NCBI GenBank assembly: GCA_005798405.1
Contig: SYJQ01000011.1
Location: 1 to 37,254 of the forward strand
From: Nitrosopumilaceae archaeon
GTDB lineage: Archaea > Thermoproteota > Nitrososphaeria > Nitrososphaerales > Nitrosopumilaceae
Reading direction: 5' to 3'
Length of the DNA: 37,254 nt
The notes below the pieces were generated by a model. The model saw nothing but the letters and a program-made list of their open reading frames with translations, did no database searches and had not been told where the DNA came from. Position numbers and translations under genes: made by a program. Shown here piece by piece: positions 27,135 through 29,928 of the stretch; within the stretch, counting starts at the first letter, position 1; every line of letters starts with the position of its first letter.

Positions 27135-27247
27135 GAAATTCCTTAACTATGCCTGGAATTGCCAAAATAACCTAAAACTATCTTTTTTGTGTAATATCTT
27201 AGACACCTCCAATTATGATCTTGTTTTATGACGTAAAAGAGAATTTA

Positions 27248-27871
27248 ATGAATCAGAATTGGAATAACCCACAATCAAAAGGAATCTCTGAGCATCTCCA
27301 TGGACTGAAAAAAGAAGCACCATTAAAACCAAGAATTCAAAATTCTCTTGTACAATTGAACAAAACCGTGTCCTCTCTTGATTACAAAGTAAAAAGTCTA
27401 GATGAAAAAGACGCAAAATTATTTAGCAGAATCGTATCTGCAAAAAAGAATCACGACTCTACAACTGGTAAAGTACTTGCAAACGAATTAGTGGAATTAA
27501 GAAAAAATAAAAAAATTCTAAACACATTGAAATTATCATTAGAACAAGTTAATCTAAGATTGTCAACAGTTTCAGATGTAGGTGATGTCATGGCCTCATT
27601 AGGTCCAATAATGGCAACAATGAATGCATTAAAGCCATCATTGGGAAGAATCATGCCTGAAGTAAGCCATGAATTTGAATCATTATTTGGAATTCTAAAC
27701 GAATCCATATCTGGTTCATTTGAAGGAAGCTTTGAATCTGATGGAGTGTCTAATGAAGAAACTGAAAGTATCTTACGAGAAGCAGCAGTAGTAGCTGGAA
27801 ATCGTGTCGGTGATAAATTCCCATCAACTCCAAGTGGAATCTCATCTTCAAGCTCAATTGGGCTAGAATAA
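27248..27871 (+). CDS. ESCRT-III (CdvB-type/Snf7) protein
   Basis: This is a 207-residue all-helical protein with the archaeal CdvB/Snf7 layout. It opens with 'KEAPLKPRIQNSLVQLNKTV' (helix 1), then long amphipathic helices with 'KDAKLFSRIVSAKKNHDSTT' and 'ANELVELRKNKKILNTLKLS', then 'VGDVMASLGPIMATMNALKP' and an acidic C-terminal part with a Ser-rich end. ESCRT-III proteins polymerise on membranes and drive scission, and in Crenarchaeota and Thaumarchaeota CdvB does this in cell division. No winged-helix CdvA-binding domain is present, so this is a CdvB1/B2-like paralogue. An ATG at 27215 would add 11 residues; I prefer 27248 because the alignment-like core begins there. The tubulin-like gene is next. 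Confidence 0.85.
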   Translation: MNQNWNNPQSKGISEHLHGLKKEAPLKPRIQNSLVQLNKTVSSLDYKVKSLDEKDAKLFSRIVSAKKNHDSTTGKVLANELVELRKNKKILNTLKLSLEQVNLRLSTVSDVGDVMASLGPIMATMNALKPSLGRIMPEVSHEFESLFGILNESISGSFEGSFESDGVSNEETESILREAAVVAGNRVGDKFPSTPSGISSSSSIGLE

Positions 27872-27968
27872 TTCATCTCTGTTTTAGAGTCAATTTTTAA
27901 ATCTAAAAACATCAAAATACGATATGGTTGGTATAATTTCTTCTACTCTCTTATTAATGAGCAGCGAG

Positions 27969-27990
27969 ATATCTTGGATGGTTAAGATAT
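27969..27990 (+). promoter_or_regulatory. Inverted repeat just before the tubulin-like gene
   Basis: ATATCTT (27969-27975) and AAGATAT (27984-27990) are perfect seven-base mirror copies around an eight-base loop, ending four bases before the ATG at 27995. In the message this would form a hairpin next to the start codon; in DNA it could be an operator. A 27-codon frame (27924-28007) crosses it and ends inside the gene. Confidence 0.4.
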
Positions 27991-27994
27991 TCCA

Positions 27995-29380
27995 ATGTCA
28001 AAATTAGCTCCACTTCCACCAGCCCCTGTACTGATGATCTGTTTTGGTCACTGCGGTATTGGATTAGGAGCTGAATCTTATCGTAGGCTATTGCTAGATG
28101 TTGGCGCAGATCCACTAAAACCAACACTTAATCCAAAAGATGAATCACGTGTTCTAAAAAGATACGGTAGCACAATTCTGAGATTCTCACCTTCTTATGG
28201 TGCTGGAAACATTCCACTTATTCCCAGAGCATTACTTGTTGACTTGGATCCAAGGGCAGCTAATCTCATTTTGCAATCATATCCTGATCTTTTTGCCCTA
28301 CGTGATCAGCATGTAATTCATGGTGCGGGAGGGGCTGCAAGAAACTGGGCAGAAGGAAAGACTAGATTTTTAGAAGAAATGAGGACCAAAGTTGACATCA
28401 AAAAACAACTATCTGCGATTTCTCCAGAACCCGTAAGGGGATATGTTGTTCCATTTGCTATGGGTGGTGGAACTGGCAGCTCTTTTTCAAGTGCGTTTAT
28501 TGAATACATAAAAAATGATACCAAAGAACATGCTACTATTGCAACTTTTGGCTTACTACCTGAATTTGGCTGGGATCCTGTAATTTTTGAAGCTGCTGCA
28601 ATTAACATTGTGATGAATTTAGAATACCAAATAAAATACAGTGATTGTTCAATTTTAGTTTCAAATAAAGCCCTTAGACAACTTGCACATCAACACGAAA
28701 AGAAATTACAAAAAATTCCTTCCATCATAGATGATTTGCCAAAAGAACATGAAGTAGGTTGGAAAGATTACAAAGGAATGAACTTGATAGCTGCAAATAC
28801 AATTTCCATGTTTATCTCATCATTTGCAAGGGAAACAGAATGGGACATGTCTAATTATCGTACATGGCTTGCAACAAAAAAACCAAAATTTGCAGTTCCT
28901 TGGATAATGCCAGTCAGTCCATCTGAAAGTCAATGGGGCAAAGACATGCTAACATCTACAAAAAACAATACAATGGAAGACGTTCTAAGTAAAATTGGCA
29001 AGAAAGAAGACGCACTGCTCTTTGACATTGATGAAAATGATATTCGAAACAATGGTGGCTCTCGTGACTCTTGTTGTATTTTAGTCAAAGTAAAAGGAGA
29101 ATTTGATATCAAAGAACGTGAGGCAATTAAAAGAATCATCAAAGACAAATTTAACATCGAAGAATCCAGAATGATCTTTGTAAAAATTCCGATAATGGAA
29201 GGAGAGCAAGCAAGTATCGCCGCACTTGTAAACACAAAAGCAATAGGCCCAAAAATTTTAGAGATTGCAAAAGAGGCTGAAGAGGCATGGGATGGATATA
29301 AAGACGAATATGGTCGATGGGGACTTTCAACTGAAGAATTTAAACAGGGTTTGATGGACGTAATCCACCAATTTAGCTAG
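27995..29380 (+). CDS. Tubulin-like GTPase (artubulin type)
   Basis: This 461-residue GTPase is from the tubulin/FtsZ superfamily. By eye it follows tubulin better than FtsZ: 'FGHCGIGLGAESY' (17-29) matches tubulin 'AGQCGNQIG', 'PRALLVDLDP' (77-86) matches 'PRAxLVDLEP', 'GAGGAARNWAEG' (110-121) matches 'SGAGNNWAKG', and 'SNKALR' (223-228) matches 'DNEALY'. The nucleotide signature is 157-GGGTGSS-163; the usual final Gly is Ser. 'MNLIAANT' (262-269) matches the base-binding 'LNxLVS' region. The T7 stretch (about 284-291, 'DMSNYRTW') lacks an obvious catalytic acid at the tubulin/FtsZ position. Such genes were described as artubulins in Nitrosoarchaeum. A TAA upstream in frame fixes the start at 27995. 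It runs 123 bases behind the ESCRT-III gene and two before the next one. Confidence 0.88.
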   Translation: MSKLAPLPPAPVLMICFGHCGIGLGAESYRRLLLDVGADPLKPTLNPKDESRVLKRYGSTILRFSPSYGAGNIPLIPRALLVDLDPRAANLILQSYPDLFALRDQHVIHGAGGAARNWAEGKTRFLEEMRTKVDIKKQLSAISPEPVRGYVVPFAMGGGTGSSFSSAFIEYIKNDTKEHATIATFGLLPEFGWDPVIFEAAAINIVMNLEYQIKYSDCSILVSNKALRQLAHQHEKKLQKIPSIIDDLPKEHEVGWKDYKGMNLIAANTISMFISSFARETEWDMSNYRTWLATKKPKFAVPWIMPVSPSESQWGKDMLTSTKNNTMEDVLSKIGKKEDALLFDIDENDIRNNGGSRDSCCILVKVKGEFDIKEREAIKRIIKDKFNIEESRMIFVKIPIMEGEQASIAALVNTKAIGPKILEIAKEAEEAWDGYKDEYGRWGLSTEEFKQGLMDVIHQFS

Positions 29381-29382
29381 AC

Positions 29383-29928
29383 ATGTCTGATTTTGAGTTT
29401 CTTGAAAATCTTGCAATCCAAATCAAAGAAAACCGATCAAAACTCTACGATGTGGAGGATTCTTTATCAAATGTCAACATACAACTACGTGAAATTCCCC
29501 TAAAACGATCAACTGAATCAACCTTTGCAAAAATGATCGGAGTAAATTATGACGATAAACTATCTGAACTTGAAAAGGCAAAAGAGCAACTGGAAAGAAC
29601 AAAAACAGATCTCAAAACTTCTATTGGGAAAGACACTGATAATTTTATCTCCGAAGTAAGCTCACCTAATTTGATTATTCCACTTGATGAAAATCCCAAA
29701 ATAATTGACGGAAATACTGTTTACAAGTATAGAAACGGAGCGAAATTCAAAAATGTTTTTGATATTCTATGTGAAATCTTGGGTCTAAGCTCTCCGCTAG
29801 TTGTAAAAGATGTAATGTTATCTCCAACTGAGATCGTAATAGCTGTAAAAGATGAATTTGAAGCAAAACAAAAATTCATCAACAGTTTTCATGAAGTCCA
29901 AAACACACTCCTTCTTAAAAAAAAATAA
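29383..29928 (+). CDS. Coiled-coil partner of the tubulin-like gene, unknown
   Basis: This is a 181-residue protein I do not recognise. Residues about 10-32 and 55-82 ('SELEKAKEQLERTKTDLKTS') have a charged heptad pattern of coiled coils. Between them lies a basic stretch near 'LREIPLKRSTES'. The C-terminal half ('NGAKFKNVFDILCEILGL' and 'LVVKDVMLSPTEIVIAVKDE') looks like a small alpha/beta domain ending in a helix and a lysine tail. There is no signal or membrane segment. It starts two bases after the tubulin-like stop and must be cotranslated from the same transcript. An adaptor or regulator of the GTPase filament is a guess from position alone. Confidence 0.8.
   Translation: MSDFEFLENLAIQIKENRSKLYDVEDSLSNVNIQLREIPLKRSTESTFAKMIGVNYDDKLSELEKAKEQLERTKTDLKTSIGKDTDNFISEVSSPNLIIPLDENPKIIDGNTVYKYRNGAKFKNVFDILCEILGLSSPLVVKDVMLSPTEIVIAVKDEFEAKQKFINSFHEVQNTLLLKKK

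Follow-up and report, generated by a model that had tools for sequence, protein, structure and literature searches.

Artubulin, an archaeal tubulin-family GTPase, and the small gene directly downstream of it, here called gene 3, share one evolutionary fate, and the ESCRT-III-type Snf7 gene that precedes them does not. This conclusion concerns a locus within the window, a 37,254-nt stretch of DNA from an ammonia-oxidising Nitrosopumilaceae archaeon (contig SYJQ01000011.1, assembly GCA_005798405.1). A preliminary description of the window had joined three genes into one tight cassette, and had proposed a joint cytoskeletal and membrane-remodelling system in which the third protein might act as an adaptor. 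All three open reading frames are real and lie on the same strand in the ORF listing of the window (Table 1). Their flanks are also as described there, with dCMP deaminase and polB genes on the opposite strand and an MscS-like gene downstream.

Table 1. Features of the Snf7–artubulin–gene 3 locus, in window coordinates
Feature	Position	Strand	Basis or remark
Snf7/CdvB-type ESCRT-III paralogue, 207 aa	27248..27871	+	Pfam Snf7; the ORF reaches up to 27215
Intergenic region, 123 bp, TATA-like TTTTTAAATC, candidate promoter of artubulin–gene 3	27872..27994	+	Sequence; putative function
Artubulin, 461 aa	27995..29380	+	Pfam Tubulin (E 1.9e-16), tubulin-first structure matches, tree
Artubulin G-box GGGTGS, residues 157-162, GTP phosphate-binding loop	28463..28480	+	Alignment to tubulin GGGTGSG
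Artubulin T7-like loop RETEWDMSNYRTWL, residues 279-292	28829..28870	+	Alignment to human tubulins and FtsZ
Gene 3, probable artubulin partner, 181 aa, family without a name	29383..29928	+	Adjacency, AlphaFold model
Gene 3 helical hairpin, residues 4-92	29392..29658	+	Predicted helices 4-51 and 60-92
Gene 3 hairpin tip motif FAKMIGVNYDD, residues 48-58	29524..29556	+	Conservation
Gene 3 C-terminal alpha/beta head, residues 97-181	29671..29925	+	AlphaFold model; part retained in short homologues

The 461-residue GTPase had been said to follow tubulin rather than FtsZ, and both structure matches and phylogeny agree with this assignment. Its best matches among solved structures are Asgard, gamma and alpha/beta tubulins, with no FtsZ among the best 60 listed. 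In a maximum-likelihood tree of 12 artubulins, 3 human tubulins and 19 FtsZ (17 from the same archaeal order, 1 from E. coli and 1 from M. jannaschii), the artubulins and the human tubulins split from all 19 FtsZ with support of 100/100, which leaves the protein of the window outside FtsZ, and the artubulins form a single group on a long branch. Among the reference sequences added to this tree, E. coli ftsZ was compared with database records as DNA and agreed at 100% across 756 bases. The tree was built without CetZ, TubZ and Asgard tubulins, so that the position of artubulin within the tubulins is left to PMC13394414, where it was not resolved. By sequence, the closest solved relatives of artubulin are the Asgard tubulins AtubA/B (PMC13394414; PDB 9f6t). 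These are paired paralogues that build microtubules, whereas artubulin, with its long branch, is usually a single gene whose companion encodes a protein of unrelated type.

The N-terminal nucleotide motif of artubulin, CFGHCGIGLG, aligns with tubulin GQCGNQIG. Among 29 aligned artubulins, which span all four families that carry the gene, G158, G159, T160 and G161 of the G-box are invariant, M156 and G157 are conserved in at least 90%, and the T7 loop RETEWDMSN is invariant throughout. Within this loop, Asn287 aligns with Glu254 of alpha-tubulin and Asp212 of FtsZ, and the catalytic acid is thus replaced in all 29. The missing acid does not exclude artubulin from the tubulin family, because beta-tubulin, which has a Lys at this position, is also without it.

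Artubulin was found in 95 of 400 genomes sampled from the order Nitrososphaerales (16 of 66 genera, 4 families), with genus identities taken from matches to named records. Named carriers include Nitrosarchaeum, Nitrosotenuis and Nitrosotalea (N. devanaterra), besides less characterised metagenome-assembled genomes (MAGs) labelled Thaumarchaeota or Nitrososphaeria. Many of the loci analysed here come from MAGs. No artubulin was found beyond the order in a wider phylum sample. A mobile-element origin was rejected, as phage and plasmid records yielded no artubulin; there were two weak matches in viral contigs, and the one that was checked looks like a phage head-tail protein and is a chance match. 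Artubulin loci are also present in records labelled Gammaproteobacteria (BMAH01000059.1, L149) and bacterium (DAIDAO010000036.1, L199), which are probably mislabelled or contaminated. One MAG (G374) holds two Nitrosarchaeum-type artubulin contigs, probably JAEMQG010000186 and JAEMQG010000049, at 98% and 93% identity, probably as a mixture of strains. In the genome from which the window derives, artubulin is the only tubulin/FtsZ-domain protein found, possibly owing to an assembly gap (the genome is 96% complete); other Nitrosarchaeum genomes hold a divergent FtsZ besides artubulin. This divergent thaumarchaeal FtsZ (loci L113, L120 and L123-L135) has a degenerate G-box, for example LAGKSG, and no recognisable T7 loop, which suggests that it is not an active GTPase.

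Directly downstream of artubulin, a gene 3 homologue is present in 113 of 116 loci from 15 genera and 4 families (some genomes were retrieved, and are counted, twice), and the other 3 loci end at contig edges. An immediately downstream gene 3 homologue was likewise seen in a set of 40 neighbourhoods, and gene 3 is present in 95 of the 95 artubulin genomes in the 400-genome sample. The 2-bp spacing noted in the window is confirmed, and across loci the gap is at most 20 bp once start codons are corrected, with a GAGGT-like sequence inside it in several of them. Two apparent exceptions to this adjacency were discarded, one as an ORF start artefact (L152) and the other as a contig break (G296). 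Regular separation of the genes, which the preliminary description had named as evidence against its own proposal, is seen for Snf7, whereas artubulin and gene 3 are separated in none of the testable loci.

The two genes of this pair are also lost and duplicated together. Artubulin is deleted and gene 3 broken in three separate lineages: a Nitrosarchaeum (G220), a Nitrosotalea (G183) and a member of family f13 (G013). In the Nitrosarchaeum genome, the sequence downstream of Snf7 picks up again where gene 3 begins, and gene 3 is a pseudogene there. Conversely, one genome (G002) carries the artubulin–gene 3 pair twice, at separate loci. Within the artubulin-bearing families, an intact gene 3 without artubulin occurs in a single genome, G027, and there the gene is found at the edge of its contig. 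Vertical descent in a single order might keep two genes side by side, and the adjacency could then be the relic of an old operon whose members are expressed together but do not work on the same task. We regard this as very improbable, given the joint losses and duplication, the differing genomic surroundings of the pair between genera, and the absence of any other artubulin neighbour that stays close across the 15 genera. The shared loss and duplication, together with the retention of Snf7, indicate that the functional unit consists of artubulin and gene 3, with Snf7 as a neighbour.

The identity of the Snf7 gene itself stands: its product scores 38.1 bits against Pfam Snf7 (E 1.6e-9), where 27.3 bits is the curated cut-off, and falls below the NCBIfam CdvB1/B2 equivalog cut-off (147.6 versus 350 bits). 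Its start, first placed at 27215, is probably the ATG at 27248, because the alignment with its orthologues begins at MxxNWNNPQS and, in several of them, a stop codon interrupts the extension upstream. Each of the 11 Nitrosarchaeum genomes tested has an orthologue of this paralogue, 81-100% identical, whether it carries artubulin or not. Snf7 adjoins artubulin in Nitrosarchaeum only, and the three-gene order is therefore not kept across thaumarchaeal genera; outside Nitrosarchaeum, the neighbourhood loci hold one Snf7 gene near gene 3, 2.8 kb off on a contig of family f13 (L077). In five Nitrosarchaeum genomes that lack both artubulin and an intact gene 3, Snf7 occupies the same site and MscS comes next. 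Snf7 is thus a Nitrosarchaeum-specific extra paralogue that lies beside the unit and does not belong to it. Of the cassette first described, the tight spacing holds for artubulin and gene 3 and fails for Snf7, since 123 bp separate Snf7 from artubulin. This gap suggests separate transcription, and the TATA-like region within it is, from its sequence, a candidate promoter of the artubulin–gene 3 pair.

These observations bear on a published suggestion. In 2012, the artubulins of Nitrosarchaeum were reported next to Snf7, and cooperation of the two in division was suggested (Yutin and Koonin, PMC3349469). Those artubulins belong to the same family as the one in the window and are surrounded by the same genes, namely Snf7, dCMP deaminase, polB, triosephosphate isomerase and TBP. 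Gene 3 is not discussed in the passages of that paper covered here; the present survey also gives artubulin a far wider distribution and confines the Snf7 link to one genus. The artubulin of Nitrosotenuis uzonensis lies away from Snf7 (PMC3835317). A 2023 review of the family restates the link to Snf7, for a single genome, and notes coiled coils in many neighbours of archaeal tubulin-like genes, naming no conserved partner (PMC9871819). A three-gene system, in which gene 3 would be the adaptor that lets artubulin and the ESCRT-III protein beside it cooperate in division or membrane remodelling, would account for the arrangement of these genes on one strand, which the window shares with other Nitrosarchaeum, and its artubulin–Snf7 part has the 2012 suggestion behind it. 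We consider it unlikely nonetheless, in view of the single-genus adjacency, the unlinked artubulin of N. uzonensis, the five Nitrosarchaeum with Snf7 and no artubulin, and the intergenic gap. In particular, the natural deletions of artubulin and gene 3 make cooperation with ESCRT-III unlikely. Across the titles, abstracts and text passages of the artubulin literature covered, we found no mention of a conserved artubulin partner, no report of experimental work on artubulins, polymerisation included, and no earlier description of gene 3 as such a partner.

Gene 3 has no family match of note in Pfam or NCBIfam. Its AlphaFold model (mean pLDDT 92.5, pTM 0.81) predicts two long helices folded as a hairpin, followed by a small alpha/beta head. 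No match to this fold was found among solved structures (PDB, best E 0.2), and a comparison with viral predicted structures gave nothing below E 0.16. At the hairpin tip, F48 and G53 are invariant and D58 is nearly so, and in the head P100, L133, G134, P138, V144 and K162 are invariant. A model of an artubulin–gene 3 fusion, with the stop codon read through as a modelling device, reached pLDDT 59.5 and pTM 0.47 and says nothing on contact between the two proteins. Kinship with ESCRT proteins or with a neighbour of cdvC was also considered and rejected: the coiled-coil gene upstream of cdvC is arCOG08707 (PMC10936438), and the best match of gene 3 to any ORF around cdvC in 8 genomes had E 0.32.

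Homologues of gene 3 without artubulin occur in two families, f2 and f8; where these genomes were searched, they held FtsZ-type relatives only, or none. Family f2 retains the whole length of gene 3, hairpin included, which shows that the gene can be of use where artubulin is missing. In family f8, the first short helix and the head are retained and most of the hairpin is lost. The loss of most of the hairpin in f8, where no artubulin was found, points to a hairpin that serves artubulin and a head with another role, with f2 as an unexplained exception. The f2 genes (L071-L076) follow a radical-SAM-like gene, with archaellum-like genes close by. The short f8 homologues encode about 125-158 aa (for example L079, 9642-10058; L080-L090), and at many loci they lie between RNase P (Rpr2)-like and EMG1/Nep1 genes, a site without gene 3 in the other families. 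This site was considered as the ancestral location of gene 3 and rejected, since gene 3 is found there in f8 only. Beyond the order, the one homologue match (E 8e-4) contains an internal stop and was taken as chance.

We conclude that artubulin and gene 3 probably form a two-component accessory module, in which gene 3 would be a dedicated protein that binds or regulates artubulin. The adaptor role first proposed for the third protein thus survives in part, as a plausible dedicated partner of artubulin, and not as an adaptor within a three-gene ESCRT system. By homology and from its intact G-box, artubulin would be expected to bind GTP and to form tubulin-type protofilaments. Gene 3 would bind these filaments or their subunits, probably through the hairpin with its invariant Phe48 and Gly53 at the tip, while the head may link to something else or dimerise. 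Because Asn replaces the catalytic acid in the T7 loop, artubulin filaments are expected to turn over slowly on their own, and gene 3 may then also control filament stability. The module could serve cell shape, polarity or positioning rather than act as a division machine; it has been lost repeatedly in lineages that keep Cdv genes, which argues for an accessory role and against an essential one in division.

Two other roles for gene 3 have to be weighed against that of a filament-binding regulator. Gene 3 might be a folding or storage chaperone, like eukaryotic tubulin cofactor A or prefoldin, whose hairpin holds unassembled artubulin. The predicted helical hairpin architecture fits such a role, as do the lack of any artubulin without gene 3, the decay of gene 3 after artubulin loss and the 2-bp spacing, which would suit co-translational delivery. 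This possibility is weakened by the lack of a notable sequence or fold match to cofactor A or prefoldin, by the conserved C-terminal head, which it does not explain, and by the persistence of the gene 3 family without artubulin in f2 and f8, and we hold it to be rather doubtful. Alternatively, gene 3 might supply or complete the GTPase step missing from the Asn287 T7 loop, as a disassembly or GTPase-activating factor. The uniform replacement of the catalytic acid across four families and the status of gene 3 as an obligate partner with invariant residues are consistent with this idea, but the Lys of beta-tubulin implies that Asn alone need not require an activator, and no catalytic-looking invariant pocket was found in gene 3; we judge it improbable. 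A bolder form of the regulator reading is also tentative, and on balance we doubt it: artubulin would be a single-gene, acid-less tubulin relative with no turnover of its own, run by a partner of new fold, and among lineages near the base of the tubulin family this partner might be the sole known protein dedicated to binding a tubulin.

Since 2012, the literature has named artubulins as candidates for the ancestor of eukaryotic tubulin and has paired them with ESCRT-III in division. Our results weaken the ESCRT-III link and highlight instead an always-present partner, without a known fold, that is lost with artubulin. The question of artubulin function thereby becomes a test on two defined, co-expressible proteins, and Nitrosotalea devanaterra, Nitrosotenuis and Nitrosarchaeum provide cultured or enriched hosts. 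Should gene 3 control assembly, it would join the small number of proteins outside eukaryotes that are known to be dedicated to binding tubulin.

A filament-forming GTPase with a dedicated small binding protein is known from FtsZ with SepF or ZapA. Gene 3 differs in that it has no sequence match to these proteins and is tied to artubulin, whereas the divergent thaumarchaeal FtsZ occurs without gene 3. The plasmid-partition protein TubZ, with TubR and TubY (PMC7762940), is likewise a tubulin-superfamily GTPase beside small helical accessory proteins. TubR and TubY, however, have DNA-binding HTH motifs, and gene 3 has no HTH or other Pfam match, while artubulin is in no plasmid record. SepF, ZapA, TubR and TubY were each rejected as identities for gene 3, with no sequence or fold match. 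The FtsZl1 operons, with vWA and coiled-coil FtsZ-like proteins (PMC2875224), place a tubulin-superfamily gene in a membrane-remodelling-type context; they involve another GTPase family, and a vWA-like gene beside artubulin is not conserved outside family f10. In that family (L047-L050 and L064-L070), four genera have a vWA-like gene immediately upstream of artubulin and in divergent orientation, which recalls the vWA genes of these operons.
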